Positions 1,277 through 47,463 of a DNA stretch of 48,976 bases are shown piece after piece; positions within the stretch are counted from its first letter, which is position 1; each line of letters begins with the position of its first letter. This DNA comes from an uncultured Lachnospiraceae bacterium (GTDB taxonomy: Bacteria > Bacillota > Clostridia > Lachnospirales > Lachnospiraceae). The notes beneath the pieces are model-generated. The model ran no database searches. It was not told the origin of the DNA and saw only the letters and a program-made list of their open reading frames with translations. The stretch lies in contig CANSTU010000017.1 in NCBI GenBank assembly GCA_947650005.1, forward strand, positions 1 through 48,976, in the 5' to 3' direction. The translations under genes were made by a program, and so were the position numbers.

Positions 1277-1304
1277 GAAACCCTTCCTGTCCGTTTCTAC
1301 GGAC
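1277..1304 (-). promoter_or_regulatory. Hairpin-SD element before the SGNH gene
   Basis: GTCCGT pairs with ACGGAC around an AGAA loop (1289-1304). The stem ends 12 nt before the ATG and is followed at once by the ribosome site AGGAAGG. It is one of fifteen start-codon copies in this window. Confidence 0.7.
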
Positions 1305-1412
1305 ACAAATCCCGGTTATAAGACGACTGTTGGGCCATGACGCTATGCGACGCCAGGTGCACGACAGCCTTCCTGTTTTCATATGATCTGTACAGGAAAT
1401 ATACAGTCCTGT

Positions 1413-2972
1413 CTAAAATCCCATATAAATAAAATCAGAGGCGTCAAAACCGACCCCGTATTTTCCAAATACAAACACTGTCCCCAACAAAAACAGGCAG
1501 ATCGCAAAACGCACCGGCAGCGGGGAAGCATAGATCCATTCTGCTGCGGGTTTCTTCTTCCACTCGCTGATCAGTTCAAACAGCAGCACAATTTGGAACC
1601 CCAAAACAGCTATTATAAATTCCGTCCGATCCAGCCCCATCACAAAGATCAGCTGATCCGCTACCAAAAACCCCTGCCATTTGGTAAATAGGTTCTCCAG
1701 GCATACCAGAGCCATTTCCACCGATTCCGAACGAAAAAAGATCCACAGAACCGTTATGACGGCAAAGGTAAAAAGGCCATAGAACACACGGCCCAGTCCC
1801 TTTAAAAGACGGGACGCCAATCCCCTCTTCCCGGATTCCTCCGGCCGCCGGACGCTTCCTTTGGCCTTCCCGGTTCCCGCCTTCCTTCCGGCAAACAGCT
1901 CCAAAATCCGCCGCGCCACGTCCTCTGCCGCCTGAGTGGCGCCATGCAGCGCTCCCCAGACCAGGAATTGGATCCCGCCGCCATGCCAAATCCCGCTGAC
2001 CAGGAAGGTGAGCATAAGGTTTCGCTCCTTTCGCCACATCCCACGCCGGTTTCCGCCCAGAGGAATATAGACGTAATCCCGTAGCCAGCTGCTCAGGGAA
2101 ATGTGCCACCGGTTCCAGAAATCCTTGAATCCCGCTGCCAGATAGGGCTGGCGGAAATTCTGAATCAGGGAAAATCCCATCATCTGCGCCACCCCCACGG
2201 CAATGCAAGAATAGCTGGCGAAATCGCAGAAAATCTGCCCGGAATAGAAAAGCGCCGCCATTAGCATGGTAAAGCTGTCCGTATTCTCATAAAGGCCGTA
2301 AAGATGATCCACCAGAACCGCCGCCCGGTCGGCCACCACCATTTTCAGGAAAAATCCCCAAAGCACTGAAATCAGACCGGCCACCGTGCGGTCATAATCC
2401 CACAATTCCCTCCGCTTTGCCCCGCAGATCCGCTTCAGCTGGGGCAGAAAACGATCTCCCCTTTCGATGGGCCCACTGGAGAGACTCGGAAAGAAGGACA
2501 CGAATACGGCGAAATGAATCAGGTTTCTCTCCGCCGGATACTTCCCCGCCGCCACATCCGCCAGATATCCCACCGCCTGCAGCGTATAAAAAGAGATTCC
2601 CAACGGTGCGACCCATCCCCAGTCAAAGGCCACATCCAGGCGCACTCTACGTATCCCACCGCCCCAAAAGCCGTTCAGGATTCCTTCCCATACAGGAAAA
2701 TACCGGAAAACAGCGAGCAGGGCCAGATTCAATATAATGCATCCGGCAGCCAGCGCCTTGCCGGATGTTTTTCTTTTATCCAAGAAAAGCCCGCATCCAT
2801 ACGTGGTCAGGACGGTAATCGCCAGCCACACCACGGCCCCGGGAGCCGCATAGCCAAAAAACGCCGCATTGGCCGCAAGCAACACAGCAGCCCGCCCTCT
2901 CCCTGTCGTTGCATAAAACAGGATGAGGACACAGATCACAAAAAGGGCAAATTCATAGGATTGAAAGAGCAA
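1413..2972 (-). CDS. MBOAT family membrane O-acyltransferase
   Basis: The product has 519 residues. The likely start is a TTG at 2972, placed 5 nt after GGGAGG and giving the N-terminus LFQSYEFALF that is usual for the family; the ATG at 3023 would add 17 non-homologous residues. Multiple membrane helices are visible. WNRWHISLSSWLRDY carries the conserved His of the MBOAT active site and SGIWHGGG the second His. Members move acyl, usually acetyl, groups across the membrane onto polysaccharide or teichoic acid. The SGNH protein downstream is the expected extracellular partner. The two genes lie in one run with the MATE gene upstream. Confidence 0.87.
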   Translation of the reverse strand: MLFQSYEFALFVICVLILFYATTGRGRAAVLLAANAAFFGYAAPGAVVWLAITVLTTYGCGLFLDKRKTSGKALAAGCIILNLALLAVFRYFPVWEGILNGFWGGGIRRVRLDVAFDWGWVAPLGISFYTLQAVGYLADVAAGKYPAERNLIHFAVFVSFFPSLSSGPIERGDRFLPQLKRICGAKRRELWDYDRTVAGLISVLWGFFLKMVVADRAAVLVDHLYGLYENTDSFTMLMAALFYSGQIFCDFASYSCIAVGVAQMMGFSLIQNFRQPYLAAGFKDFWNRWHISLSSWLRDYVYIPLGGNRRGMWRKERNLMLTFLVSGIWHGGGIQFLVWGALHGATQAAEDVARRILELFAGRKAGTGKAKGSVRRPEESGKRGLASRLLKGLGRVFYGLFTFAVITVLWIFFRSESVEMALVCLENLFTKWQGFLVADQLIFVMGLDRTEFIIAVLGFQIVLLFELISEWKKKPAAEWIYASPLPVRFAICLFLLGTVFVFGKYGVGFDASDFIYMGF

Positions 2973-3003
2973 TGCTTCCTCCCATCTGCGCACAATGCGC
3001 GCA
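2973..3003 (-). promoter_or_regulatory. Hairpin-SD element before the MBOAT gene
   Basis: GCGCA and TGCGC (2988-3000) pair around a 3-nt loop, then AGAT and GGGAGG lead to the TTG start 15 nt downstream of the stem. The element supports the TTG start over the upstream ATG. Confidence 0.68.
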
Positions 3004-3043
3004 CTTAAATAAGGGGATCCCATCTACATGCCTGGGCGCGGAT

Positions 3044-4384
3044 TTATTCACGCTTCTCCCGCTCCATCTTCCGCATCAGAAGACGATATATAACGTATAA
3101 GAAGATCCCTCCCGCAAACCAAGCGCTGGCGTTCGCCGTACAGACCCCGATAAAGCTCCTTTTCCATGCCGCGATGATGGCGAATACAGCCCGGGCCAAA
3201 AGCTCCACCACGCCTCCCATCATGGGCCAGAATCCATAACCGCAACCCTGCAACACGTTCCGATAGATGAAGATCATACCCACGGTGGTGAAAAAGACGC
3301 CGTTGATCGTCATATATGTTCTGGAATAACCCAGCACATCCGTCACATCTCCGGTGATAAACAGCCCGATAACCGCAGGAAGCGTTACCAGGACGATCAC
3401 ATAAATGGCCACCGAATATACCGTGGAGATGCCAAAGGCGATCCTGCTCCCCTTCTTAATCCGTCCCAAATCTCCGATCCCCCGGTTCTGCCCGCAGTAG
3501 GTTGCCATGGTCATCCCGAGCGCTTGGAACATCTGCAAAACCAAACCCTCTATCTTGAAAACAGCCGTATAGGAGGCCACCACCGTGGAGCCCAGGAGGT
3601 TCAGCGCCACCTGCACCAGGATCGTTCCCACCGCAGTAATGCCGAACTGCAGCGCCATCGGAAATCCAATGGAAAGTTGGTTACGCACGCACCATTTCTC
3701 CAGACGGAAATGCTCCTTTTCCAACGACAAAATGGGCACCTTTTTCACCAAATAGGCCAGGCAGAGAATCCCTGAAATCCCCTGGGAAACCACCGTTGCC
3801 AAAGCCGCCCCTGCGACACCCATGCGAAAATATACGATCAAGACGATATCCCCCGCCACATTCAGAAATGCCGACAGGATCAGAAAGTATAACGGAACCC
3901 TGCTGTTGCCTATGGCCCGCAGAATGCTTGCAATCAGGTTGTAAAGCGCGGTACAGCCCAGCCCCCAGCAGATGATCACGATATAGGTGCGGGACATATC
4001 CATGATATCCTCCGGCGTCTGCATAACGCGAAGCAGCCAGTCCATGCCCAGCACGCTCCCCGCCGTCATCGCCACCGTTACGATCACGGAAAGCACAATG
4101 GCGCTTCCCACGCTCCTTTTCATCCCTTCGCCGTCCCCGGCGCCGAAGCGCTGGGCCGTCAACACCGTAAATCCCGTCGTCATCCCCTGCAGAAATCCGA
4201 TGATCAGGAAAGTGATCGTTCCCGTGGCGCCCACGGCGGCAAGAGCCTTCACCCCCACATAACGCCCTACGATGACGGTATCCACCATGCTGTAAAGCTG
4301 CTGAAAAAGATTTCCCAGGATGATGGGAATGGCAAATCGAACGATCAGCCGAAAGGGGCTTCCCTTTGTCATATCCAGTTCCAT
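3044..4384 (-). CDS. MATE family efflux transporter
   Basis: The product has 446 residues from the ATG at 4384, preceded by TGGAGG; the longer frame to 4498 has no ribosome site and a non-homologous N-terminus. About twelve hydrophobic segments are visible, and the opening FAIPIILGNLFQQLYSMVDT with VGRYVG is the typical MATE helix-1/2 signature. The family exports drugs, toxins or lipid-linked intermediates by Na+ or H+ antiport. Substrate is unknown. It precedes MBOAT and SGNH on the same strand, so it could serve the same envelope pathway, but that is inference from position only. Confidence 0.9.
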   Translation of the reverse strand: MELDMTKGSPFRLIVRFAIPIILGNLFQQLYSMVDTVIVGRYVGVKALAAVGATGTITFLIIGFLQGMTTGFTVLTAQRFGAGDGEGMKRSVGSAIVLSVIVTVAMTAGSVLGMDWLLRVMQTPEDIMDMSRTYIVIICWGLGCTALYNLIASILRAIGNSRVPLYFLILSAFLNVAGDIVLIVYFRMGVAGAALATVVSQGISGILCLAYLVKKVPILSLEKEHFRLEKWCVRNQLSIGFPMALQFGITAVGTILVQVALNLLGSTVVASYTAVFKIEGLVLQMFQALGMTMATYCGQNRGIGDLGRIKKGSRIAFGISTVYSVAIYVIVLVTLPAVIGLFITGDVTDVLGYSRTYMTINGVFFTTVGMIFIYRNVLQGCGYGFWPMMGGVVELLARAVFAIIAAWKRSFIGVCTANASAWFAGGIFLYVIYRLLMRKMEREKRE

Positions 4385-4416
4385 ACGAATCCTCCAAGCC
4401 GCCGCATTTCTGCGGC
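4385..4416 (-). promoter_or_regulatory. Hairpin-SD element before the MATE gene
   Basis: GCCGC and GCGGC (4401-4416) pair around a 6-nt loop; the stem ends 16 nt before the ATG, with TGGAGG in between. Confidence 0.62.
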
Positions 4417-4630
4417 ACAGCAAAAATTTAAAATAGATCCTCTCTGCTTTCCGATGCAAACCCATACAGAAAAAGATGCAGAAAATTTCTTTCCGCACCT
4501 TTCGCCACCCTCCGGAGGCCGCCGCGTATATCCCGGCAACCCTTTTCCCTTATGCTCTGATAAACCGGCCGTCGTCCTCTGCCTAGAGGTTTCGGATTTG
4601 TCGGCAAACCAACAATATCTATCAAACCGC

Positions 4631-5032
4631 TCAGCCGTCGTCCTCCGCCTCATCCGCGCCTTCCGCCCCGATATTCAGCATATTCATGGTTCTCCTGCGC
4701 AGCCGGGAGTGCTCCGAAGCTTCCAATATGTAATTCTTGATCTCCTTCGCGTTTTTTACATGCGTCAACAGTAAAACCGGATTGGTGGTGTCTCCCGTAT
4801 AGCACTTCACCGTCCCAATACCCACGATCCGCTCCGCAAAAGAGGCAAGCAGCTCCACGTCCTGTACCTTATACATGTAGCAGTCGTTTTCCCTCTTATT
4901 CAGAAACCCTTCCGAAACCGTGATCATATCCGCCTTAATCGTATAGACCGTAAAGGTAAAAGGAAGACCTAGGAAAAGCCATCTCTTTTTCTCCTGGAAC
5001 ATGATTTCATTCTTATTTTCATTCGTATTCAT
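4631..5032 (-). CDS. PH-domain-like (bPH) protein
   Basis: The product has 133 residues from the ATG at 5032, with AGAGG upstream. The core (KKRWLFLGLPFTFTVYTIKADMITVSEGFLNK, then VQDVELLASFAERIVGIGTVKCYTG) follows the strand pattern of bacterial PH domains of the YdbS/YvbH type, where a hydrophobic segment leads into a beta-barrel. The C-terminus is charged and acidic. Function of such proteins is generally unassigned. It has its own sigma-A-like promoter and is divergent from pyrB. Confidence 0.6.
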   Translation of the reverse strand: MNTNENKNEIMFQEKKRWLFLGLPFTFTVYTIKADMITVSEGFLNKRENDCYMYKVQDVELLASFAERIVGIGTVKCYTGDTTNPVLLLTHVKNAKEIKNYILEASEHSRLRRRTMNMLNIGAEGADEAEDDG

Positions 5033-5091
5033 ATCGACCTCTACTTTTGCATCCTGCCTTTCCTTTGGGAAATGCAGCCGCTTTTTGTTGT

Positions 5092-5120
5092 AGTATACTA
5101 TCATCCGCCGCAAAGTTCAA
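5092..5120 (-). promoter_or_regulatory. Promoter for the PH-domain gene
   Basis: Reading the minus strand, a -35 TTGAAC (5115-5120) and a -10 TATACT (5092-5097) are separated by exactly 17 bp. It is placed back to back with the pyrB promoter. Confidence 0.75.
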
Positions 5121-5146
5121 GTAACAGTTTGGAGATGATTTGGAGG

Positions 5147-5175
5147 TTGCATCCCGCTCCGGCCTGTGCTATAAT
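5147..5175 (+). promoter_or_regulatory. Promoter for the pyrBI operon
   Basis: A -35 TTGCAT (5147-5152) and a perfect -10 TATAAT (5170-5175) are spaced by 17 bp. Transcription would start near 5182, giving a leader of about 320 nt before pyrB. Confidence 0.8.
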
Positions 5176-5274
5176 GTGCCAAGAGTCAATCGATGCCGTT
5201 CGTTTCAAGCTGAATATCAAAAAGCAGGGCGGCAACGGTACACAACAGAATCCATCATTTTTATCGGAGCGGCA

Positions 5275-5508
5275 ATGGGAAGAATGATCCTGCGTGGAAA
5301 AGAGATGCTCTCTAAATTCATAATGAACATCAGGAAAATGGTCGAAGGGAAAATTGTTTTCTCTTCGATTTTCTTTTTCTTTTGGATGGCGTGCAGGGCA
5401 CGGCATCCTTTCTTTTGTCCGGAGAATCTCTTTTCTCGAAGGAGAGGACATCCCTTCCCTGCCGGTATGCAAAGGTTCCGGACACAGAAAGGAGCAAACC
5501 CGTTATGA
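5275..5508 (+). CDS. Putative pyrBI leader peptide
   Basis: This 77-residue frame starts with ATG at 5275, 5 nt after GGAG, and its TGA (5506-5508) overlaps the pyrB ATG at 5505, so translation could be coupled. It crosses a T-rich tract (5354-5383, 22 of 30 bases T) that encodes mostly Phe and Ile, and then a terminator-like hairpin at 5384-5408. A leader ORF that runs through a U-rich pause region into an attenuator and ends near pyrB is the layout known for enterobacterial pyrBI. No protein family is recognised. It may be translated only for regulation. Confidence 0.45.
5384..5416 (+). terminator. Putative pyrBI attenuator
   Basis: GGATGGCGTGC and GCACGGCATCC (5384-5408) form an 11-bp stem with one mismatch and a 3-nt loop, followed by TTTCTTTT. 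It lies inside the leader, about 95 nt before pyrB and directly after the T-rich tract, so it can act as a conditional terminator. Confidence 0.6.
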
Positions 5509-6422
5509 GACATCTGATGAACCCCCTTGACTTCTCCGTCGAGGAACTGGACCAGCTTTTCAGGCTGGCCCGCGATATGGAAGCCGATATGCCCAAATAT
5601 GCCCATTCATGCGCGGGAAAGAAGCTAGCGACCTGTTTCTATGAGCCCAGCACCAGAACCCGGCTGAGTTTTGAATCCGCCATGCTCAATCTGGGCGGCA
5701 GCGTACTCGGTTTTTCTGATGCCGGTTCTTCTTCCGCATCGAAGGGGGAAAGCGTTGCGGATACCATCCGCATCATTTCCTGTTATGCCGATATCTGCGC
5801 CATGCGTCATCCCAAGGAAGGAGCCCCCATGGTTGCGGCTTCCTATTCCGGCGTCCCGGTCATCAACGCAGGCGACGGCGGTCATCAGCACCCCACTCAG
5901 ACTTTAACCGATCTGATGACCATCCGCAGCCTGAAAGGACGCCTTAGCGACTTAACCATCGGACTGTGCGGGGATCTGAAATTCGGGCGCACCGTGCATT
6001 CGCTTATCAATGCCCTGGTACGCTACGACAACATTCGTTTTCTTTTCATCTCTCCAGAGGAGCTGCGCGTACCGGATTATATCACGGAAATGCTCAAGGA
6101 AAAGGGGATCCCCTATGAGGAAGTCATCCGTCTGGAGGAAATCCTTCCCCGCCTTGACCTTCTGTACATGACCCGAGTCCAGAAGGAGCGCTTTTTTAAT
6201 GAAGAGGATTATGTGCGCCTGAAGGATTTCTATATTCTGGACAAAGCCAAAATGAAGCTGGCCTCCGAGGATATGTTGGTACTCCATCCCCTTCCCAGGG
6301 TGAACGAAATCTCCGTGGATGTGGACGATGACCCCAGGGCCGTTTATTTCAAACAGGCACAGTACGGCGTCTATGTGCGGATGGCCCTGATCCTTACCCT
6401 GCTGGACTGGGCAGGCGCCTGA
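5505..6422 (+). CDS. pyrB: Aspartate carbamoyltransferase, catalytic chain
   Basis: The 305-residue product joins carbamoyl phosphate and aspartate to carbamoyl-aspartate, the first committed step of pyrimidine synthesis. [16 protein letters not shown] contains the S-T-R-T-R carbamoyl phosphate loop, [12 protein letters not shown] the second conserved motif, and HPLPRVNEI the aspartate-binding 240s-loop motif. Length is typical. The ATG at 5505 is preceded by AAAGGAG and is the only start that gives the family N-terminus. pyrI follows 62 nt later, so the enzyme is probably the allosteric two-chain type. A long leader with an attenuator-like structure precedes it. Confidence 0.96.
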
Positions 6423-6484
6423 AGAACCGCTATGGCTGGCCGAATCATATTGAATGAAAATCCGTAGAAAGGAATGGTAAATAC

Positions 6485-6928
6485 ATGTTAAATGTCGGAA
6501 AAATCGAAGAAGGCTTTGTTCTTGATCATATCCAAGCAGGAAAGAGCCTGTCACTCTATCATCACCTCCAGCTGGATAAGCTGGACTGCCCTGTGGCGAT
6601 CATCAAAAACGCGAGAAGCAATAAGATGGGCAAAAAGGATATTCTCAAGGTGGAATGCGACGTGGACCAGATGGATCTGGATGTACTCGCCGTCATCGAC
6701 CACAATATCACTGTAAACGTCATTAAAAACGGAGAAATCGTGGAGAAAAAAGAGCTGATGCTTCCAAAAGAAATCCGGAACATCATTTACTGCCATAATC
6801 CCCGCTGCATCACTTCCATTGAACAGGGGCTTCCCCATGTCTTCACCTTGTCTGACGAGAAAAAAGAGATCTACCGCTGTAAATACTGCGAAGAAAAATT
6901 TGACAGGCGTTCCTGGATCAAAAATTAA
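6485..6928 (+). CDS. pyrI: Aspartate carbamoyltransferase, regulatory chain
   Basis: The 147-residue product has the N-terminal nucleotide-binding domain and a C-terminal zinc domain with four cysteines, in CHNPRC and YRCKYC. In the family, this chain binds ATP, CTP or UTP and transmits the effect to PyrB. GAAAGGAATG lies before the ATG. It follows pyrB in the same operon and ends before a large hairpin. A regulatory chain is frequent in enterobacteria and archaea and also known in clostridia; Bacillus lacks it and uses PyrR. Confidence 0.95.
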   Translation: MLNVGKIEEGFVLDHIQAGKSLSLYHHLQLDKLDCPVAIIKNARSNKMGKKDILKVECDVDQMDLDVLAVIDHNITVNVIKNGEIVEKKELMLPKEIRNIIYCHNPRCITSIEQGLPHVFTLSDEKKEIYRCKYCEEKFDRRSWIKN

Positions 6929-6955
6929 ATTCCAGATACCACTAGAATGAGAAAT

Positions 6956-7019: not shown

Positions 7020-7053
7020 CTTCGCTCATATCACAAAACTCCTGATTGGACTC

Positions 7054-8295: not shown

Positions 8296-8566
8296 TTTTA
8301 TTCCCGTCTGCCCGCTTTAGCAGGCGCTCAAACCAAAGAGGTTAAAAGAATATTTCTTTCAACCTTGTTCCCGTCTGCGTGCTTTTGTACGCTCTCTAAT
8401 CAGGGAGGTTGAATGCATCCTTCTTTCAACCTTGCTCCCATCTGCGTGCTTTTGCACGCTCTCTAATCAGGGAGGTTGAATGTGTCCTTCTTTCAACCTT
8501 GCTCCCATCTGCGTGCTTTTGCACGCTTTCATATCAGGGAGGTTACATCAACTTTGTTCCCATTTT
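8296..8566 (-). repeat. Tandem array of four 67-bp hairpin-SD units before ugd
   Basis: Four hairpins at 8310-8325, 8377-8392, 8444-8459 and 8511-8526 are spaced by exactly 67 bp. Read on the minus strand each is a 6-bp stem with a 4-nt loop (for example GCGTGC-AAAA-GCACGC), then AGATGGGAGCAAG, then a second hairpin built from GTTGAA and TTCAAC, then CTCCCTGAT. The unit nearest the gene ends in AGACGGGAATAAAA and the ugd ATG. The stem of that unit has diverged (GCCTGC/GCGGGC with a G-T pair), so copies vary while pairing remains. Confidence 0.85.
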
Positions 8567-8569
8567 CCC

Positions 8570-12329: not shown

Positions 12330-12359
12330 GCGCGCTAAAGCGCGCAGATGGGAGCAAAT
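12330..12359 (+). promoter_or_regulatory. Hairpin-SD element before the ferredoxin gene
   Basis: GCGCGC-TAAA-GCGCGC (12330-12345) ends 14 nt before the ATG; AGATGGGAGCAAAT fills the gap and holds the ribosome site GGGAG. Confidence 0.75.
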
Positions 12360-13840: not shown

Positions 13841-14641
13841 ATGTCTGAATTATGTCTAAAGGTATTGGACGGCAGGGGCCAAACCCTGGCGGTTGGCAGG
13901 GGGACGGATGAAGCCTGTTTGGTTTTCACCCGGGAATATCAGGAAGGAGATCTGATCCTCTTCCAGTCCTCTGAAACCGGGCAGTATATCTGGCTCCAAT
14001 TCGACGATGCTTTGGGAAAAACCTTGGTCTATGTCACTGGCCTGGTATTTTTCCGCATACCCTTCGGGGAAAGATGCGACAGCCTCTCCCCCAAGGCTTT
14101 TCAGGGGAAAAAGCATCTGATCTGCGCAAGGGCCGCAAGGGATTTTGAGATAGACTCCTATCGGAACCTTGCCGTCAACATATATGATCAGAACAACAGC
14201 CAGAATCTATATCCCCATGCCACAGCGAATGTGGAGACCAGAGACGAGGCCGTTTTTGCGGCGCGCAACGCCATTGACGGCATAACCGTCACGGACTGCC
14301 ATGGAGAGTGGCCCTATGGTTCATGGGGAATCAATCGGCAGGACGATGCGAAGTTCCGAATCGATTTTGGGACGGATGTAGCGATTGACCGCATAATTTT
14401 ATATACAAGGGCTGATTTTCCCCATGATAACTGGTGGAACCGGGTATCGTTTACCTTTTCCGACGGCAGCGAATTGGACTGGGAGCTGCAAAAGGGCGGA
14501 ATGGCCCAGGAAATCCGGTTTGAGGAGAAACGGGTCAACTGGCTGGAAATGCATGATATGAAAAAGGCGGACGACCCTTCCCCGTTTCCGGCCCTGTCCC
14601 AGATCGAGGTCTACGGCAGGCCCTGCCGCACAGGAAGCTGA
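13841..14641 (+). CDS. Cytoplasmic discoidin-like carbohydrate-binding protein
   Basis: The 266-residue protein has two parts. Residues 1-100 are a beta-rich domain of unknown type (LCLKVLDGRGQTLAVG...). Residues 105-260 resemble F5/8 type C domains: NVETRDEAVFAARNAIDG, then FRIDFGTDVAIDRIILYTR, and the closing ALSQIEVYG. Such beta-sandwiches bind sugars. There is no signal peptide or catalytic motif. The start follows GGAGG at 5 nt and lies 10 bp after GH88, so the two are co-translated. A sugar-binding or chaperone role for the GH88 pathway is inference. Confidence 0.65.
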   Translation: MSELCLKVLDGRGQTLAVGRGTDEACLVFTREYQEGDLILFQSSETGQYIWLQFDDALGKTLVYVTGLVFFRIPFGERCDSLSPKAFQGKKHLICARAARDFEIDSYRNLAVNIYDQNNSQNLYPHATANVETRDEAVFAARNAIDGITVTDCHGEWPYGSWGINRQDDAKFRIDFGTDVAIDRIILYTRADFPHDNWWNRVSFTFSDGSELDWELQKGGMAQEIRFEEKRVNWLEMHDMKKADDPSPFPALSQIEVYGRPCRTGS

Positions 14642-14818
14642 TTTGAACGCCCGCTTATGCGGGCAGATGGGAGCAAGATTGAAAGAAGGACGCTTTCAAT
14701 CTCCCTGATTTGAATGCCCGCTTATGCGGGCAGACGGGAGCAAGATTGAAAGAAGGACGCTTTCAATCTCCCTGATTTGAATGCCCGCTTATGCGGGCAG
14801 ATGGGAGCAAGATTAAAA
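14642..14818 (+). repeat. Tandem array of three 67-bp hairpin-SD units before kduI
   Basis: Three units start at 14642, 14709 and 14776, exactly 67 bp apart. Each has GCCCGC-TTAT-GCGGGC (14649-14664, 14716-14731, 14783-14798), then AGATGGGAGCAAG, then a second stem ATTGAAAG/CTTTCAAT, then CTCCCTGATTTGAAT. Units differ at only a few bases (AACG for AATG; AGACGGG for AGATGGG); the third lacks the second stem. CTCCC can pair with GGGAG, closing an outer stem that would hide the ribosome-binding sequence. Confidence 0.88.
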
Positions 14819-14839: not shown

Positions 14840-14864
14840 CTTTGGGACGTTATTCGTCCCAAAG
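14840..14864 (+). other. Perfect 10-bp hairpin between array and kduI
   Basis: CTTTGGGACG (14840-14849) pairs with CGTCCCAAAG (14855-14864) around TTATT. No T tract follows, so it is not a standard terminator; it lies in the kduI leader. Confidence 0.7.
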
Positions 14865-14881: not shown

Positions 14882-14910
14882 GTCGCTTACGCGGCGGAAT
14901 GGGAGGAAAC
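14882..14910 (+). promoter_or_regulatory. Hairpin-SD element before kduI
   Basis: GTCGC-TTAC-GCGGC (one T-G pair) ends 15 nt before the ATG, followed by GGAATGGGAGGAAAC with the ribosome site GGGAGG. Confidence 0.7.
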
Positions 14911-15786: not shown

Positions 15787-15816
15787 GCCGCCTCCGGCGG
15801 CAGAATGCGAGGAAAC
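15787..15816 (+). promoter_or_regulatory. Hairpin-SD element before kduD
   Basis: GCCGCC-TCC-GGCGGC ends 15 nt before the ATG, followed by AGAATGCGAGGAAAC. It sits within the kduI-kduD intergenic gap, so the element is not confined to transcript 5' ends. Confidence 0.72.
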
Positions 15817-21155: not shown

Positions 21156-21185
21156 ATTTGTTCCCATCTGCGTGCTTTAACACGC
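21156..21185 (-). promoter_or_regulatory. Hairpin-SD element before sigF
   Basis: GCGTGT-TAAA-GCACGC (21170-21185, one T-G pair) ends 14 nt before the ATG; AGATGGGAACAAAT lies between. It sits between spoIIAB and sigF and could set sigF translation relative to its inhibitor. Confidence 0.75.
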
Positions 21186-21247
21186 ACTCAAATCAAAGAT
21201 TAGCCCTCCGCACATCGCAGGATTTCTCTGCGATACTGTTTCAAGCT

Positions 21248-21679: not shown

Positions 21680-21711
21680 ATTTGGCTCCCGTCTGCGCGC
21701 CATGGGCGCGC
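21680..21711 (-). promoter_or_regulatory. Hairpin-SD element before spoIIAB
   Basis: GCGCGCC and GGCGCGC (21695-21711) pair around a 3-nt loop; AGACGGGAGCCAAAT leads to the ATG 15 nt on. The stem differs entirely in sequence from the sigF copy. Confidence 0.75.
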
Positions 21712-23966: not shown

Positions 23967-23998
23967 TTGTCCTCACATTCTGCCGTCCTGGAACGGCA
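23967..23998 (-). promoter_or_regulatory. Hairpin-SD element before the 53-residue gene
   Basis: TGCCGT and ACGGCA (23981-23998) pair around a 6-nt loop; AGAATGTGAGGACAA leads to the ATG. The spacer is nearly identical to that of kduD (AGAATGCGAGGAAAC). Confidence 0.7.
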
Positions 23999-25512: not shown

Positions 25513-25542
25513 CTAAACTCCCGTCTGCCCGCTTTAGCGGGC
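25513..25542 (-). promoter_or_regulatory. Hairpin-SD element upstream of folC (alternative start)
   Basis: GCCCGC-TAAA-GCGGGC (25527-25542) ends 14 nt before an ATG at 25512, with AGACGGGAGTTTAG between. That ATG is in frame with folC, 54 codons ahead of the usual start. Confidence 0.7.
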
Positions 25543-28226: not shown

Positions 28227-28255
28227 CTTCGTTCCTTTCTGCCGCCAATGACGGC
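28227..28255 (-). promoter_or_regulatory. Hairpin-SD element before valS
   Basis: GCCGTC-ATT-GGCGGC (28241-28255, one T-G pair) ends 14 nt before the ATG; AGAAAGGAACGAAG lies between. The element therefore coexists with a T-box on the same leader. Confidence 0.62.
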
Positions 28256-28390: not shown

Positions 28391-28780
28391 AAAAAAACGC
28401 CCTATGCCCGTGCGGGCAAAGGGCGCCTATGCGCTGTACCACCTTTATTTACCGTAATTGCCATGACTTTTCCGGCTTCCTTACGGCCTCATTGCGACTC
28501 CCATCAGAGTCTCATCCTTTAACGGGGATGGGGCGTGAAGATTTACTAAAGATCATGGAAGATAGCCTGTTAATCGGCTTCCTGACCCGTTCAACCCTCC
28601 GACTCCAAAGCTACCTTCCGCACATCCCGGAAAACATCCATCCCGGATCTTCTCCTGCTTCCGGACAGCCTTTCAGCCGATGGGCCGTCCTCTCTGATGA
28701 AGGGGGTGTGCATACTCCTCTTTTTCATCGTCTTTTCCTGATTTAGGAAGTACGATTACAATCGCCTTCCCTTTTATCTG
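28391..28780 (-). promoter_or_regulatory. T-box riboswitch of valS
   Basis: On the minus strand the antiterminator motif GGTGGTACAGCGC (28431-28443) is followed by a terminator stem (28398-28410 with 28413-28425, one mismatch) and a T7 run at 28391-28397. Upstream, an AGAGAGGACGG segment and a 200-nt structured region fit stem I. Uncharged tRNA-Val would stabilise the antiterminator. Specificity for Val is taken from the gene; I could not place the specifier codon with confidence. Confidence 0.88.
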
Positions 28781-30397: not shown

Positions 30398-30540
30398 CGG
30401 GCAAATGTCCGCGAAATGTTACAACAGACAGCTTTTTTCATCATATGGCCTGGTCTCTTTCAGGATATTTCCCCGTCACAACCTCAGAAATATTTTACTG
30501 GGATATGGCCAGCCATTCACCCCCTTTGTTTTCAATCTAA

Positions 30541-30606
30541 CCTCCCTGCCCGCTTTAGCAGGCTTAAATTCACGGTTGAAAAATGGCCGGATGCCATTTT
30601 TCAACC
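30541..30606 (-). repeat. Hairpin-SD unit between the ABC permease and the response regulator
   Basis: A perfect 14-bp stem, GGTTGAAAAATGGC (30574-30587) with its complement at 30593-30606, precedes GCCTGC-TAAA-GCGGGC (30548-30563) and GGGAGGTTAGA. The order is that of one array unit. No gene starts right after it; a TTG frame of 18 codons is the only candidate. Confidence 0.65.
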
Positions 30607-34107: not shown

Positions 34108-34205
34108 TTTCACCTTCCTGCCCGTTTCAGCGGGCGTATAATTACAGTTGAAAATAGCACAAGGACATTAATCAACCCAGCTTCCATCTACCCGCTTATG
34201 CGGGC
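34108..34205 (-). promoter_or_regulatory. Hairpin-SD elements before uxuA
   Basis: GCCCG-CTGAAA-CGGGC (34120-34135) ends 12 nt before the ATG, followed by AGGAAGG. A second hairpin GCCCGC-ATAA-GCGGGT lies 70 bp further upstream (34190-34205), followed by AGATGGAAGC and a weak GTTGA...TCAAC stem, so this is a decayed two-unit array. Confidence 0.7.
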
Positions 34206-34252
34206 GCCCAAATCAGGCGAAGGTAACTCGCATTTCCCGGGAAATGGCAGAT

Positions 34253-38300: not shown

Positions 38301-39032
38301 TTATAGATGCATACCGCCGTCCACCACCAAATCCGTTCCCGTGATATACCTTCCCTCTTCGCTGCACAATAGAAGCACCGCTCCTGCACAGTCCTGCGCG
38401 CCTCCGGCAAATCCCATGGGAATGCCTTCCATTATCTTCCTGGCATAGGCAGCGTCATTTAGAGCATCCTCGTTGCGCGGCGTGGCAATGACTCCCGGAC
38501 TTAAGTTGTTGACGGTAATGCCCTCCGCGGCCAGCTGCCCTGCCAGATTGCACACCAGGCTCATTTGGGCGCATTTGCTGGCGGCATAAACAGCCATGTC
38601 CTTATGGGGCTTATACTGCTGCACGCTACCCACCGTAACGATCCGTCCCCAGCCCTTCTTCCGCATATAGGGCGCATAGCGCTGGATTAGGAATAGAGAG
38701 GCCTTCAGGTTCGTCTGGATCTGCCTGTCAAATTCCTCCGGCGTGATTTCATCCCAGGCTTTCCGCACCTGGACCGATGCGTTGAGCACCAGGATGTCCA
38801 CGTCTCCCGTCTGCTTGTACAGGCGGTCGGCACATCCTTCCTCTGATAGATCCTCTAGGGCAGTTTCTGTTTTCCCGGGAATCTGTTCTGCCGCCCTTTG
38901 ACATTTTTCCAGACTTGTGGAACCATGGACGATGACCTGCGCTCCCGCCTCTGCCAGCGCGGCAGCCACCGCCCGGCCAATCCCCTGGGTAGAGCCCGTA
39001 ACCAGGGCGCGTTTTCCTGCTAAATCAAACAT
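38301..39032 (-). CDS. Short-chain dehydrogenase/reductase
   Basis: The 243-residue protein has TGSTQGIGRAVAAAL for NAD(P), NASVQ in the NNAG position, Ser in TVGSVQQ and YAASK as catalytic pair. The ATG at 39032 follows GGGGGATATACAT; an upstream frame of 51 codons has no family features. Cosituated lactonase and dehydratase suggest oxidation of a sugar or reduction of a uronate; the substrate is unknown. Confidence 0.88.
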   Translation of the reverse strand: MFDLAGKRALVTGSTQGIGRAVAAALAEAGAQVIVHGSTSLEKCQRAAEQIPGKTETALEDLSEEGCADRLYKQTGDVDILVLNASVQVRKAWDEITPEEFDRQIQTNLKASLFLIQRYAPYMRKKGWGRIVTVGSVQQYKPHKDMAVYAASKCAQMSLVCNLAGQLAAEGITVNNLSPGVIATPRNEDALNDAAYARKIMEGIPMGFAGGAQDCAGAVLLLCSEEGRYITGTDLVVDGGMHL

Positions 39033-39257
39033 ATGTATATCCCCCTGCAGATCGCAAGCACTGCCTGCGAAACTGCTGCCAATAAAAGATTGAAAGGAGC
39101 CCTCCGACTTTTCCCTTTGTTTTTTTACAGGCATCGCTTCCGGTGCCTCTATACGCGGCCTGCACATCAGGCGCAGGCCACACATGCAAAAATCCCTAAA
39201 ACCTGTATCACCAGCGCAAACATCGATCTGAAACCGTTCTTTACGATCCGACTTTAT

Positions 39258-41591: not shown

Positions 41592-41612
41592 TGCGGTTCA
41601 TATTCCACGCCG

Positions 41613-41638
41613 GCTCCCATCTGCCTGCTTTAGCAGGC
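41613..41638 (-). repeat. Orphan hairpin-SD copy in a convergent gap
   Basis: GCCTGC-TAAA-GCAGGC (41623-41638), then AGATGGGAGCC on the minus strand. It lies between the ends of the AraC and FAD genes and no gene starts after it. Confidence 0.72.
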
Positions 41639-41695
41639 ACTCAGATCAAGCTAATGGGACTCACGTTTCCTAAGAAATCGCTGATTCCATGCGAT

Positions 41696-42892: not shown

Positions 42893-42922
42893 ATGAATCC
42901 TTCCTGCCGCACCTTACGCGGC
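42893..42922 (-). promoter_or_regulatory. Hairpin-SD element before the FAD oxidoreductase gene
   Basis: GCCGC and GCGGC (42906-42922) pair around a 7-nt loop, then AGGAAGGATTCAT leads to the ATG 13 nt away. Confidence 0.66.
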
Positions 42923-42933
42923 TTTTCCTGCCG

Positions 42934-43776
42934 TCATTGTTTAATTCCCGATACCGCCACGCTCTGTACGATATATTTCTGCATACACAGAAACGCTATA
43001 ATCAAGGGCACCGCGCTCAATACCGCCACCGCCATACGTGGACCATAATAGATGGAATTTTCCTGGGCGTTGAACAGTGATACGCCTACGGACAACAGCT
43101 GTTTTTTGGAAGTGCGGATTACCACCATCGGCCACAGATAGGAATTCCACTGGGCCACGATCTGCAGGATACTCAAAGCCGCCATGACCGGTTTGCACAG
43201 AGGCAGAATGATCCTGAAAAAGGTGCGCCACTCCCCGGCCCCATCCAGGCAGGCCGATTCCCGCAGAGAATCGGGCAGCGCAGATATGTTTTGGCTGGCG
43301 AAGAAAATGCCGTATACATAGGCTACGTTCCCCAAAATCAATGGCCAGTAAGTATTGATCATCCCCCATCCGCTGTACTGTAGATACAGGGGGATCATAC
43401 GCGACTCAAAGGGGATCATCATTACGGCCAGCATGAAGAAATACCAGAATTTCTTGCCGAAGAAGCGTCCTTTGGCAAAAGCATACCCGCACAGCAGGGC
43501 AAAAAACACAGAAATGACCGTATTTACTATGGCAATGAACAGGGTATTCATATAGTACCGCACCAGATCGATCATCTCCATGGCATACTTATAGTTCTTC
43601 ATGGACGTTTCTTTGGGAAGCCAGGAAAAGGGCGGCAGTTCCGTGATGGCATTGGCGTCAAAGGACAAGATAATGGCCCACCAAAGAGGAATCAGGATGA
43701 TTGCGAGAAGCGCCAGCAGGATCACAGCCGTGATCAGATGCCGCTGTTTTTCTTTTGTGAATTTCTTTTTTTTCAT
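42934..43776 (-). CDS. Carbohydrate ABC transporter permease (CUT1, MalG type)
   Basis: The 280-residue protein has six helices and the EAA loop ESACLDGAGEWRTFFRIILPLCKPV, where it contacts the ATPase. It follows the other permease with a 3-nt gap (TGA-TTG-ATG). No ATPase gene is present in the operon, so a shared MsmX-type ATPase is expected elsewhere. Confidence 0.92.
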   Translation of the reverse strand: MKKKKFTKEKQRHLITAVILLALLAIILIPLWWAIILSFDANAITELPPFSWLPKETSMKNYKYAMEMIDLVRYYMNTLFIAIVNTVISVFFALLCGYAFAKGRFFGKKFWYFFMLAVMMIPFESRMIPLYLQYSGWGMINTYWPLILGNVAYVYGIFFASQNISALPDSLRESACLDGAGEWRTFFRIILPLCKPVMAALSILQIVAQWNSYLWPMVVIRTSKKQLLSVGVSLFNAQENSIYYGPRMAVAVLSAVPLIIAFLCMQKYIVQSVAVSGIKQ

Positions 43777-43779
43777 CAA

Positions 43780-44697
43780 TCAGTCCCCTCCTTTCATAAA
43801 TCCGGACAGCTTCACATTGAAAATCGTCATCACGAAAACAATGGCAAACAGGATCACCGCGCCCGCAGAGGACAAGCCGTATCTGGGAGATTCAAAGCTG
43901 TACTGATAGATGTACATCAGGATGGTCTGAAGCGTTCCGTTGGGCCTTCCCGCACAGGCGTTCCCGCCCAGGATATACAGGTCTGTGAAACGGGACAAAC
44001 CGTTGATCATTCCCGTAACAAACAGGAACGCAAAGCAGGACTTCATCTGGGGAATGGTAATATAGAGCATCCGTTTCAGCTGGGTGGCCCCATCCACAGA
44101 TGCCGCATCATAGATTTCCGTGGGGATCGACTGCAGGCTGGCCAGATTCAGAAGCATGGAATAGCCCAGGTTCATCCAGAGCCAAATAATGGTAGCCCCC
44201 ATATGGGAAAGCGCCGGATCCGTGATCCATCCTATCGTGACTTCCCTACCTGTGATCATGGATAGGAACTGATTTAAAAGTCCGCCGTTCCCCTTCAGCA
44301 CATACTGGAAAATCAGCACCACGCTGACGCCTGTAATGATGTTGGGCATATAGAACATGACCCGGAAAAAGCCCTGCAGCTTTGTGCGTCCCAGGCTGTT
44401 GATCGCATTCGCCAGCAGAAAGCCGAATGGGATGGTCAGCAGGCCATAGAACCCCAGCAACATTGTGTTCTTAAGCGCCCTCAAAAAGGATTTGGAGGTT
44501 AAGAGCGTCGTATAGTTGCGCAGCCCGATCACCTCATAGTCCGTACCGTATGTCCCCATGTTCGTCGTTGAGAAATAGAGGGTCTTAAGAGTGGGAAAAT
44601 AAACGAGAGCCACCAACGCGGCCAGCGTGACGATGATAAAGGAATACCATGTCAGATTACGCTTTATATCCCTTTTCGTTATTCTTTTTTTGTTCAT
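43780..44697 (-). CDS. Carbohydrate ABC transporter permease (CUT1, MalF type)
   Basis: The 305-residue protein has six helices and the EAA loop YDAASVDGATQLKRMLYITIPQM. The ATG at 44697 follows AGGAGGGAG; a GTG two codons before is part of the ribosome region. With the MalG-type partner it forms the membrane channel for the binding protein encoded upstream. Confidence 0.92.
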   Translation of the reverse strand: MNKKRITKRDIKRNLTWYSFIIVTLAALVALVYFPTLKTLYFSTTNMGTYGTDYEVIGLRNYTTLLTSKSFLRALKNTMLLGFYGLLTIPFGFLLANAINSLGRTKLQGFFRVMFYMPNIITGVSVVLIFQYVLKGNGGLLNQFLSMITGREVTIGWITDPALSHMGATIIWLWMNLGYSMLLNLASLQSIPTEIYDAASVDGATQLKRMLYITIPQMKSCFAFLFVTGMINGLSRFTDLYILGGNACAGRPNGTLQTILMYIYQYSFESPRYGLSSAGAVILFAIVFVMTIFNVKLSGFMKGGD

Positions 44698-44797
44698 AGG
44701 CACTCCCTCCTGATGTCTTTATAACCTTTTGCCCTTGCCTGCGGGCTCTTCCCTGTCGCCTTACGACCAATTCCCCGTGCATGATCGCAGCACGAAT

Positions 44798-44828
44798 ACA
44801 GGCGGCGGAGGAAACCACCGCCGCCTGT
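44798..44828 (-). promoter_or_regulatory. Intergenic stem-loop between binding protein and permease genes
   Basis: ACAGGCGGCGG (44798-44808) and CCGCCGCCTGT (44818-44828) form a perfect 11-bp stem with no T run downstream. Such stems after the binding-protein gene usually protect its mRNA 3' end and lower expression of the permeases. Confidence 0.75.
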
Positions 44829-44848
44829 CATAATCTGACAATGCCTCG

Positions 44849-46366
44849 TTAGTTCAGAGTGGAGAGATATTCATCCACATAGTCCTGCATGGACTGTGCC
44901 GCCTCCTCGGGAGTCATATTTTCATTCACCACATTGTCCACGGCCGTAATCAGCGTATTGGTTACGGAACCGAAACTCACGTTGTTGAATACGTCGTTTG
45001 TGGAATTGTTATAGTTCTCAGGCAGGGTACTCAGGGCAGCATCGATAGCGGACGCCGCATTTTCACCCACCAGCTCCTGGACCATATCCTTGCCGTCCTT
45101 GTTATTGGGGATTTCCATATTGGAAACCACCCACTGCGTGGCCTTCTCGTCTGTGGTCATGAATTTGATGAACTCCCATGCCCATTCCTTGTTGTCGGAA
45201 TCTTTGAAGATAGCCATATTATTGTCACCCGCGTGAGGTGTAGGAATCCCTTTGTATTCGCCAACAGAACACTGAGGCATAGGGATCGCCACATATCTTC
45301 CATCAAGATCAGCAGCCTGCATTTCAAAATATTTTGCGATCGGGCCATCCGTGAAAAGCATTGCCCAGTCATTCTCCCCGTTTAAGGTGGTGGTCACCGC
45401 AACCCCTTCCTTACTGCCGGGGCTGGCAAATTTACTCATATCTGCAATCAGCTGGAATGCGGCGATGCTTTCCGGAACCATAAAATTAACTTCACAATCC
45501 TGAAGGGTGGCGCCATACTGGAATACCTTGGCTCCCAATGCATTGGCGGCCTGTACATAGTTGAACCACAAGTTAGAACCCCCTGCGGAATACATCTGCA
45601 GGCCATAGGTCTCTTTTCCAGTTACCGGATCCGTACCCGTCAGCTTTTCACCCAGGGCGAGTACATCGTCATAGGTCCAGCTCTCATCGGGAAGTTCTAC
45701 CCCGTAATCCTCGAAAATCTGTGTGTCAAGCCACACGATACAAGGAGCAAGGGATACGGAAATGCCGGAAACCTTGAACGAATCCGGATGCTCCGTTGTA
45801 CGTCTGGAGGCCGTTCCATAGAGCCGGTCATAGTACTCCGGATCCTTTTCCAGGTAAGGAGCGAGATCTTCCGTCAAATCCGTCATGGTCCCGCCGTGCA
45901 TGATGATATCCACCTCGCCGCTCAGACAGGCCGTTGTGATCGCGCTCTGCCAGCTGTCCCAGGAAGCATTTTCGATCTGCAGGGTCACATTGGGATAAAA
46001 CTCATTCCATCTGGCGATGATGTCCTTATAGCCGGGTTTAAAAATGCCGGAGACCAGGTCGGTAACCCCTTCCTCCCCCACTGCAAAGATGCCGGGGCCG
46101 AACACGTTCAGCATCACTTCTTTACTGGTATCTAAGCTTTCATTTTTTTGATATCCGCCGGTTTCCACTTCGGCTTCCACCTTGAAGGAATCCTCCGCTT
46201 CTCCTACCACGGTTTCTTCCGCGGCTTCCGGAATTTCAGCCTTACTTTCCGTTTCCGTATTACCCCCCCCCGTATCGTTCTGAGAAGATGAACCGGATCC
46301 GCCGCAGCCTGCCACGGCTACAGCCAACAGAACTGTACTCATCAATAATGCAAGTTTCCTCTTCAT
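44849..46366 (-). CDS. Sugar ABC transporter substrate-binding lipoprotein
   Basis: The 505-residue protein has a lipoprotein signal (LLAVAVAGCGG), a Gly/Ser-rich linker, and the family-1 solute-binding fold (MLNVFGPGIFAVGEEG..., WNEFYPNVTLQIENASWDSWQ). It is anchored outside and delivers oligosaccharides to the two permeases. AAGGAGG precedes the ATG. A nine-base G run encodes the linker near residue 33; its length is worth noting as a slippage site. Confidence 0.93.
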   Translation of the reverse strand: MKRKLALLMSTVLLAVAVAGCGGSGSSSQNDTGGGNTETESKAEIPEAAEETVVGEAEDSFKVEAEVETGGYQKNESLDTSKEVMLNVFGPGIFAVGEEGVTDLVSGIFKPGYKDIIARWNEFYPNVTLQIENASWDSWQSAITTACLSGEVDIIMHGGTMTDLTEDLAPYLEKDPEYYDRLYGTASRRTTEHPDSFKVSGISVSLAPCIVWLDTQIFEDYGVELPDESWTYDDVLALGEKLTGTDPVTGKETYGLQMYSAGGSNLWFNYVQAANALGAKVFQYGATLQDCEVNFMVPESIAAFQLIADMSKFASPGSKEGVAVTTTLNGENDWAMLFTDGPIAKYFEMQAADLDGRYVAIPMPQCSVGEYKGIPTPHAGDNNMAIFKDSDNKEWAWEFIKFMTTDEKATQWVVSNMEIPNNKDGKDMVQELVGENAASAIDAALSTLPENYNNSTNDVFNNVSFGSVTNTLITAVDNVVNENMTPEEAAQSMQDYVDEYLSTLN

Positions 46367-46493
46367 GTACGTCTTTCCTCCTTCTTTTTATAAAAAATTT
46401 ACTATCATCAAGGAATCCTTCTTAGGGTAAATGTCCCTGGAAACTCCCTTTCCGATCTCTCGTTTATGCTGCCGTCCCTTCTCCCTGCACGAG

Positions 46494-47396
46494 TTACAAT
46501 GAAGTCTGTGTGTCGTCCGGATCGCCGTTGCGCGCCAAGTCATATTCCTTTGACCAATCCAGATCCCGGTATTTCTCTCCCCTGGGATCTGTCCGGATGA
46601 ATTCCATCAGCATGTCCAGCATTTCTTCCGTCCAGGTATTCTTGTCGATCTGGGCCGTGGTTAAGCGGTTCTGTCCGATCATCTCGAACCCAAAATCATC
46701 CTTGATATGGGTCTTTGCCGCGCCGTCCACCACATCCGCCACAAGATGGCTGGGGATGAACAGCACCCCTCCCGGCGCTCCGAACACAACGTCCCCGGGC
46801 AGGCAGACAGCATTGCCGATCCGGCAGGCCGTGTTGAATCCTGTCATCACCACTTCCCGAATGGGCGTGGGATCGATTCCTCGATAATAGACCTGCACTC
46901 CCTCCACCGTTTTCATCTGTTCCAAATCCCGGACGCCTCCCCAGACCACGCCGCCCCCGTTCTTGGTCCTGGCGTGAATTGCCGTGGTTAAATTCCCTCC
47001 CAGAAAAGTACCCTTATAGATCTTGTCATATAGGTCACAGACCACCACGTCCCGTTCCACCAGGGAGTCGATCACCCATTGGTTATAGTTTCCCTTCCGT
47101 CCCTCCTGGGCTCCGATTCCGAACATCACCTCATGCATGTCGGGCCTGGTGGGCATATAGGTACAGGTTACCGCACGGCCGATGAGCTTTCTTCCGTCCT
47201 CATGCAGCAGATGAAGCCTCCCCTCAAACTGGTTCTCATATCCCAGCAGATAGATCGGCTTCCAGACTTCTTCAAGCGTCATCCCCCGCAGGGCGTCCAG
47301 ATATCGGTCTTCCACATAGGGACGTCCGTCCTCCATCCGCGGGCCCGTCCAATGCTGTGTGAGTTCAATGACATCCTCTTTTGAATTAAAATGCAT
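46494..47396 (-). CDS. RraA-family lyase/aldolase-like protein
   Basis: The 300-residue protein has the RraA fold core: HEVMFGIGAQEGRKGNYNQWVIDSLVERDVVVCDLYDKIYKGTFLGGNLTTAIHARTKNGGGVVWGGVRDLEQM. The Gly-Gly and the Arg-Asp (GVRDLEQ) correspond to the metal and oxalate/pyruvate site of HMG/CHA aldolases. It lies between the enolase-superfamily gene and the importer, where a 2-keto-3-deoxy acid produced by that dehydratase would be a natural substrate; this is inference. The ATG at 47396 follows GGGGG. Confidence 0.83.
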   Translation of the reverse strand: MHFNSKEDVIELTQHWTGPRMEDGRPYVEDRYLDALRGMTLEEVWKPIYLLGYENQFEGRLHLLHEDGRKLIGRAVTCTYMPTRPDMHEVMFGIGAQEGRKGNYNQWVIDSLVERDVVVCDLYDKIYKGTFLGGNLTTAIHARTKNGGGVVWGGVRDLEQMKTVEGVQVYYRGIDPTPIREVVMTGFNTACRIGNAVCLPGDVVFGAPGGVLFIPSHLVADVVDGAAKTHIKDDFGFEMIGQNRLTTAQIDKNTWTEEMLDMLMEFIRTDPRGEKYRDLDWSKEYDLARNGDPDDTQTSL

Positions 47397-47463
47397 ATTT
47401 GCCCCCATCTGCGTGCAAAGCACACGCTTATATCAAGGAGATTGAAAGCATCCCTCTTTCAAT
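47397..47463 (-). promoter_or_regulatory. Hairpin-SD unit before the RraA-like gene
   Basis: The hairpin at 47411-47427 (GCGTGT with GCACGC) ends 14 nt before the ATG; AGATGGGGGCAAAT lies between. Upstream is the second stem ATTGAAAG/CTTTCAAT (47441-47463) and CTCCTTGAT, so a complete single array unit of about 67 bp is present. Confidence 0.75.

Follow-up and report, generated by a model that had tools for sequence, protein, structure and literature searches.

REP and BIME elements are dispersed palindromes that occur in mosaic arrays and are accompanied by Y1 (RAYT) transposases. In Streptococcus pneumoniae, BOX elements are modular interspersed repeats assembled from boxA, boxB and boxC, which can alter the expression of neighbouring genes (PMC3049150). 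The STAR elements of Staphylococcus aureus are intergenic, GC-rich, variable-number arrays with locus-specific spacers and are sometimes found in mRNA leaders (PMC3532100), and the TAACTGA repeats of marine Beggiatoaceae are dispersed mostly just upstream of start codons with no pattern in the function of the genes (PMC4679880). Candidate RNAs from the Breaker and Weinberg surveys, which include a class of 'mobile/repeat sequence candidates', comprise cis motifs near the ribosome-binding site, some of them in multiple copies (PMC11109978, PMC6429828, PMC2864571). Here we analyse an element that recalls each of these, recognized in a 48,976-nucleotide stretch of an uncultured Lachnospiraceae bacterium (contig CANSTU010000017.1, positions 1 to 48,976; hereafter the window): a GC-rich hairpin that runs into an extended Shine-Dalgarno (SD) sequence and lies mostly 14-15 nt before a start codon.

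The comparison with these systems brings out what is particular to the element. It is, like BOX, a small interspersed and modular repeat with a tandem inner module and a predicted RNA fold; unlike BOX as described, it carries an SD at one end and keeps a fixed distance to the start, a separation that rests on the description and not on sequence (PMC3049150). With STAR it shares the GC-rich arrays and locus-specific spacers, but the 14-bp STAR consensus is different and the passages available describe no fixed position relative to the start codon (PMC3532100). The TAACTGA repeat is a 7-nt direct repeat over the expected ribosome-binding site with little SD character, whereas here a hairpin is joined to the SD (PMC4679880). 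Dispersed palindromes in mosaic arrays are also what characterizes REP/BIME, but the two repeat-rich genomes studied here, the source genome (G000) and its relative G002, gave no match to the Y1_Tnp profile, and the start-proximal copies are tied to the start codon. Among the Breaker and Weinberg candidates, as far as the accessible parts of the reports go, none is described with this layout (PMC11109978, PMC6429828, PMC2864571), and the portions seen of a study of start sites in C. phytofermentans make no mention of a hairpin (PMC5171806). The sequence-only reading, which first noticed the hairpin and had no access to databases, knew of no such element; the literature searched, judged from titles, the beginnings of abstracts and passages, contains none either. 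As far as our searches go, this is a real and abundant element family that is undescribed; by type it belongs with the small interspersed repeats, but its copies are joined to the start of translation at a set distance.

At 15 start codons of the window a GC-rich stem of 5-7 bp had been reported to end 12-16 nt upstream, and read-back recovered it at 15/15 (Table 1), one of these starts, that of the MBOAT gene, being TTG. The three types of spacer between stem and start are likewise real, namely AGAYGGGAGCAA (type I), AGAATGNGAGGAAA with its variants (type II) and AGGAAGG (type III), and the genes so preceded are indeed unrelated in function. The stem is part of the predicted minimum-free-energy fold in all 15 of the 100-nt segments, but since the energies of the whole segments are mostly ordinary (z from +0.49 to -2.86), the evidence lies in the local stem and its position and not in the overall structure.

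To place these hairpins in their genomic context we used the source genome (3.59 Mb in 138 contigs), keeping apart as a held-out set 400 kb outside the window that was not used for defining the motif. A strict test required a perfect stem of at least 5 bp with at least 60% GC and a loop of 3-6 nt, ending 12-18 nt before the start. Such stems precede 37/275 called genes of the held-out set, against a mean of 2.92 (standard deviation 1.67, maximum 7) over 60 dinucleotide shuffles of the upstream part in which the last 10 nt before the start were kept; a looser count on the same genes gives 39/275. The strict pipeline returns 6/40 genes in the window (shuffles 0.30), fewer than the 15 read by eye because it misses imperfect stems and some starts. 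By comparison, stretches from other genera of the family that were chosen independently of the motif yield 1/140 genes (shuffles 0.58), and E. coli K-12 yields one of 31 called and one of 47 annotated starts. Given the held-out enrichment and these low control counts, hairpins at this spacing are commoner than base composition predicts. The profile of distances from stem end to start, with the window included, peaks at 15 nt, and in 30 of the 45 start-proximal held-out copies the stem ends 14 or 15 nt before an ATG, the rest having other starts or spacings. In agreement with the observation that copies occur both at transcript 5' ends and inside operons, the upstream neighbour of 58 hairpin genes lies on the same strand within 150 nt in 23 cases, further away in 29 and on the opposite strand in 6. 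Few hairpin genes have a same-strand neighbour within 20 nt upstream (1/58 versus 54/255), which may just reflect lack of room.

The hairpin had been read as an RNA structure in place at individual starts. This picture is incomplete: the element is also a dispersed, modular and tandemly duplicating repeat whose presence varies between relatives. A covariance model built from 11 window copies (R1) finds many more, with 19 matches at E<=0.01 in the window (the 11 seeds among them), 84 in the held-out 400 kb and at least 157 across the source genome, where the best 150 candidates were scored; extrapolation points to roughly 800 copies per genome. Gene starts account for 41 of the 84 held-out copies and arrays for 30; 4 belong to both classes and 9 to neither. 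Type I copies follow a consensus of about TGATTTGAGTGCNNGCTAAAGCNNGCAGATGGGAGCAAATATG, with conserved TGATTTG and AGA flanks; as the 5' TGATTTG and the loop are not needed for a bare ribosome-binding site, their conservation suggests common descent of the copies. Copies away from starts, whether in arrays, as single copies or of a second hairpin type, had been missed in the first reading.

The arrays lie upstream of genes and contain up to six units, mostly of 61-67 nt, each consisting of hairpin 1, an SD-like spacer and a hairpin 2 such as GATTGAAACAACGTTTCAATC or CGTGAAACCTGTGGTTTCACG. Most are uniform internally and differ between loci (L069:3642-3875 is an exception in not being uniform), which suggests local tandem duplication. 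In the last unit at a gene start hairpin 2 is gone and the ATG of the gene stands in its place, and some arrays end without a gene start. In non-final units at least three of the five SD-like bases are predicted to be paired in 25/34 folds of the unit, a count made with no shuffled control; the predicted partner is the TCCC after hairpin 2 in 4/5 window units and elsewhere partly the 5' flank. The mosaic character extends further, as an extra module, ACTTTGGGAC..GTCCCAAAGT, precedes type II hairpins, and a second, sequence-unrelated hairpin-SD family, hp4, shows nearly the same spacing (GCAGTATCGCA..TGCGATATGCAGGGGTATAAG-ATG). In seven of 17 hp4 copies in stretches from G000 and G002, an open frame 62 or more codons long begins 14-17 nt beyond the arm; a further copy (L207 at 2598) has by eye an ATG at about 16 nt, and for the window copy at 39030..39074 the ATG at 39032 lies 17 nt on, counted from the TGCGATA-like arm. 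Profile searches for the Y1 transposase (PF01797) returned no match in G000 and G002 and matches in 6/11 other genomes of the genus, with other mobilising enzymes outside the search.

Several hairpin copies also lie within about 200 nt of contig starts (G002 C63, C91 and C187; G000 C24, C43, C73, C121 and C126); the repeats are therefore a probable cause of assembly breaks, and their true number may be higher than counted. Another dispersed repeat, about 110 nt long and unrelated to the first (CTTCCCTGG..AGGGAAGCGTCCAGGG; L068:1-109, L069:146-291, L073:10808-10920 and others), was also seen, with some of its copies at contig starts (L065, L068, L075).

The stems differ in sequence and yet pair, which had been taken as covariation. 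This is strong on model-fitted alignments, though much of it is between paralogous copies of a palindrome, given that the element is a dispersed, tandemly duplicating repeat with presence/absence differences. Across 107 distinct G000 copies 94.7% of the cells are paired (19-56% in slid versions) and 86 cells changed on both sides versus 28.9 in shuffled alignments; counting more coarsely, by pairs that show any double change, separates the two less clearly (5 versus 3.2, reached by 51/500 shuffles). For 48 distinct type II copies from other genera there are 25 double-change cells versus 11.0 shuffled, the coarser pair count being reached by 27/500 shuffles. Because these alignments were fitted to the model, we also built a stem-blind set, defined only by the flanks and limited to copies with three or more Watson-Crick pairs (139 copies, 834 pairs): 757/834 pairs are Watson-Crick, 35 G.T, 20 A.C and 22 other. 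Without the three-pair filter the last three classes number 44, 29 and 80. An excess of G.T over A.C, which should arise where pairing in the RNA and not upkeep of the DNA preserves the stem, is borderline in these data; they favour selection on the stem at the RNA level, short of proof.

Orthologous starts in G002, whose ValS is 96% identical to that of G000, provide a further comparison. Of 16 alignable window starts (folC could not be placed) six have the hairpin in both genomes, three in G000 only, none in G002 only and seven in neither (Fisher p=0.011; 0/16 at the control distance), so that, in small numbers, the stem is kept at 6/9. The expectation of covariation in orthologous upstream regions was thus borne out in part: pair-keeping changes occur at the SGNH, MBOAT and 53-residue genes, with stems at the latter two that differ between the genomes and still pair, and some sites have gained or lost the hairpin. 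In G002 the kduD stem is kept with a changed spacer, the ferredoxin gene has an hp4 hairpin in place of type I, and ugd has a type II spacer with a poor stem. The array upstream of kduI is absent from G002, where 46 nt stand against 279 nt in G000, and that of ugd likewise differs in presence between the two genomes. Of 12 spoIIAB loci of the genus inspected by eye, 7 have an upstream stem of 5 bp or more, in several sequences, 2 have one of 4 bp and 3 lack it. The spoIIAB orthologue was not found in G002, where the best match has 34% identity (E 1.6e-5); sporulation may have been lost there, or the gene may be missing from the assembly. On these comparisons the hairpin is evidently gained and lost, but often kept once present.

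Beyond these two genomes the element becomes sparser and changes form. An exact-pattern scan of the genome collection hit eight stretches, all from Lachnospiraceae, one of them in Eisenbergiella tayi DSM 26961. In 41 genomes scanned with R1, again with the best 150 candidates scored in each so that counts are lower bounds, G000 has at least 152 matches and G002 at least 150, the 11 other genomes of the genus have 0-15, and other genera 0 or 1. A type II model (R2), built from 23 copies of six genomes, reaches further; its counts are lower bounds too, with the best 21-22 candidates scored per genome. At E<=0.01, with the best 21 candidates scored per genome, it matches 226/299 genomes of the family, 41 of which have at least 5 matches and 11 at least 17, nine of these 11 lying outside the genus. 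The top score outside the genus is 48 bits in G200, with copies of the form GCCGC-loop-GCGGC-GGAATGAGAGGAAAT-ATG. The form related to the window's hairpins that is present in other genera of the Lachnospiraceae, and less strongly in other parts of the class, can be written GCCGC-loop-GCGGC-RGAAUGAGAGG-AUG. In a sample of the class 141/291 genomes matched, while outside the family only 7 of the genomes listed have at least 5 matches (best 34.8 bits); at ten high-scoring loci there, chosen by score, a stem, a purine-rich spacer and an ATG are present in every case. Since an SD with an ATG is enough to score, one or two weak R2 matches in a genome carry little weight and were not counted as finds. 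In family stretches that were, all but L193 and L201, picked for their R2 matches, 22 of 336 genes have stems at 12-18 nt, compared with 2.7 expected from positions farther upstream.

We put at even chances the reading that the element acts as a ribosome-binding-site cassette, in which a GC-rich hairpin running into an extended SD, mostly 14-15 nt before the start, aids initiation. The relation of the spacers to the 3' end of 16S rRNA is consistent with it. The 16S gene was matched in one of 13 genomes (G012) and not found in the G000 assembly; in that relative the 3' end reads GGATCACCTCCTTTCTA, where we take the mature end to be placed as in B. subtilis. Its complement, AGAAAGGAGG, matches the spacers beginning at their first base, as AGA-U-G-GGAG for type I and AGAA-N-G for type II; the G at position 1 can form a pair with U. 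Across 121 hairpin genes, drawn from stretches of G000, the genus and the family, the ungapped register with the best match starts no more than 1 nt from the stem end in 90.7 (with ties split), versus 40.1 for non-hairpin genes at the same distances. The stem would then be placed at the 30S subunit's upstream edge, beside the nucleotide pairing with the 3'-terminal U of 16S rRNA, where it might stack on or cap the helix of SD and anti-SD. By preventing upstream RNA from pairing with the SD it might keep the SD open, which would make 30S docking easier both at first cistrons and at internal ones. In many non-final array units the SD-like site is predicted to be partly paired, and the last, start-proximal SD would be left most exposed. 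The cassette itself may spread as duplicated or mobile DNA and persist at gene starts by virtue of acting as a start signal. We offer this function as a well-shaped hypothesis and not as a result. Candidate roles named in the sequence-only reading were protection of the mRNA, an open ribosome site, a standby site and the binding of a protein.

A number of observations weigh against this reading. Most called genes have no hairpin by the strict test, and enrichment is uneven within the genus, with stems at starts in G001 0/40, G003 4/54, G005 1/39, G007 1/30, G008 0/14, G009 6/40, G011 5/48 and G012 1/42. Part of the register result is explained by the fact that a stem rich in GC and an SD rich in purines cannot overlap, and in G000 the match to the 16S tail is no stronger in hairpin genes (7.84 versus 7.77 pairs). 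The pair counts of the model-fitted alignments (A3, A5) lean towards the model. In the stem-blind set the excess of G.T over A.C is borderline (35:20, p=0.058; for distinct hairpins 33:20, p=0.098), as is the difference between sense and antisense fold energy (p=0.053). By the rule of the 16-start test SGNH, kduI and ugd lack the hairpin in G002, with SGNH failing although a 5-bp stem is visible and kduI having neither array nor hairpin; the start list came from G000 hairpins and is thereby biased to 'G000 only' over 'G002 only'. By eye, the sigF hairpin is present in one of 12 genus loci, that of G000.

Foremost among the alternatives, and in our view unlikely, is a selfish or mutational small interspersed repeat, the 3' end of which resembles an SD by chance and has replaced the gene's own, with the stem maintained by processes at the DNA level such as quasipalindrome correction. 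Such a repeat would explain copies that are dispersed, arrays that are mostly locus-specific and come and go at kduI and ugd, the nine held-out copies at neither gene nor array, and a strand asymmetry that is borderline. It explains less well why the spacing is sharp at 14-15 nt in several sequence families and near that in hp4, why the hairpin is retained at orthologous starts and why it occurs at low copy in many genera; the lack of a Y1 match in the two repeat-rich genomes, the only mobilising enzyme searched, also speaks against it. Next in rank, and rather unlikely, comes an mRNA stability element, either a 5' barrier to an RNase J-type exonuclease or a marker of the processed 5' end before each cistron: a pure barrier needs neither a fixed spacing of 14-15 nt nor an SD fused to the stem, although the position at the upstream edge of the ribosome and the presence of hairpins after both near and far upstream genes suit it. 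Improbable by comparison is an operator for an RNA-binding regulator of a global post-transcriptional regulon, with a protein reading the hairpin shape and the TGATTTG and RGA flanks; those of type I (TGATTTG and AGA), superfluous for a plain ribosome-binding site, are conserved and many unrelated genes carry the hairpin, but the flanks differ between types and are absent from hp4, and stem sequences vary.

Other candidates were rejected. A leader-peptide mini-gene in each array unit is excluded by unit lengths of 61, 62, 63, 64, 65, 66 and 67, which break the frame, and by the want of a constant start codon; an intrinsic terminator by the purine-rich spacer that follows the stem, with no U run in aligned copies; and present spread by Y1/REP transposition by the missing Y1 match in G000 and G002. 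An upstream in-frame ATG as the true start was discarded because C can stand for the T of AGATGGG and 15-nt variants do not keep the frame. Stem integrity in start versus orphan copies (at least 5/6 pairs in 29/34 versus 16/30, p=0.007) was set aside, as the orphan copies include matches that arose by chance within genes.

Returning to the ribosome-binding-site cassette, a wider and more tentative form of it is conceivable, in which throughout the Lachnospiraceae, and thinly across the class, the hairpin is a third component of the start signal, unrelated families have converged on about 14-15 nt and the cassette copies itself. Were the hairpin part of the start signal, the grammar of the ribosome-binding site in a large group of gut bacteria would be richer than SD and start codon, the hairpin would have to be built into expression models and gene-start callers, and it would offer a portable insulator of ribosome-binding sites. 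The family is also a repeat tied to start codons.

Table 1. Hairpin copies, arrays and associated modules in the window
Position	Strand	Element	Context
1277..1304	-	GTCCGT-AGAA-ACGGAC + 12-nt spacer AGGAAGGGTTTC	before SGNH start 1276 (gene name from the sequence-only reading; no Pfam match at 0.001)
2973..3002	-	GCGCGC-ATT-GTGCGC + spacer AGATGGGAGGAAGCA	before MBOAT start (TTG) 2972
4385..4416	-	GCCGCA-GAAA-TGCGGC + spacer GGCTTGGAGGATTCGT	before MATE start 4384
8296..8325	-	GCCTGC-TAAA-GCGGGC + AGACGGGAATAAAA	before ugd start 8295
8360..8536	-	three tandem units, period 67: hairpin 1 + AGAYGGGARCAAGGTTG + hairpin 2	upstream of ugd copy
12330..12359	+	GCGCGC-TAAA-GCGCGC + AGATGGGAGCAAAT	before putative ferredoxin-like start 12360 (name from the same reading)
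14639..14815	+	three tandem units, period 67	upstream of kduI
14841..14863	+	further hairpin module TTTGGGACG..CGTCCCAAA	between array and kduI hairpin
14882..14910	+	type II GTCGC-TTAC-GCGGC + GGAATGGGAGGAAAC	before kduI start 14911
15787..15816	+	type II GCCGCC-TCC-GGCGGC + AGAATGCGAGGAAAC	before kduD start 15817
21156..21185	-	GCGTGT-TAAA-GCACGC + AGATGGGAACAAAT	before sigF start 21155
21213..21237	-	hp4 copy	in sigF leader, not beside start
21680..21711	-	GCGCGCC-CAT-GGCGCGC + AGACGGGAGCCAAAT	before spoIIAB start 21679
23967..23997	-	type II GCCGTT-CCAG-GACGGC + AGAATGTGAGGACAA	before start 23966 of 53-residue gene
25513..25542	-	GCCCGC-TAAA-GCGGGC + AGACGGGAGTTTAG	before Mur-ligase/folC start 25512
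28227..28255	-	type II GCCGTC-ATT-GGCGGC + AGAAAGGAACGAAG	before valS start 28226
30533..30572	-	copy	not directly before a called gene
34108..34135	-	GCCCG-CTGAAA-CGGGC + AGGAAGGTGAAA	before uxuA start 34107
34173..34215	-	copy	in uxuA leader, upstream, not start-proximal
39030..39074	-	hp4 hairpin TCGCAGGC-AGT-GCTTGCGA (39050-39074), then TGCAGGGGGATATACAT	ATG 39032 (frame MFDLAGKRAL)
41606..41648	-	intact orphan copy	downstream of FAD oxidoreductase gene; then only a frame of about 20 codons (by eye)
42893..42922	-	GCCGCG..TGCGGC + AGGAAGGATTCAT	before FAD oxidoreductase start 42892
47397..47427	-	GCGTG..CACGC + AGATGGGGGCAAAT	before RraA-like start 47396

When the window was searched with the Rfam covariance models at E<=5, five matches were returned, none of them over hairpin copies; the sole plausible one is a T-box-like leader upstream of valS (28416-28737, minus strand), which at 68.1 bits lies under the Rfam gathering score of 93. 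Finally, the open reading frames called from 14899 (the kduI frame), 15805 (the kduD frame) and 21167 begin at in-frame ATGs that are supplied by the element itself, upstream of the likely real start. As the element places such ATGs inside the SD, automatic start annotation is likely to be wrong at some of these genes.

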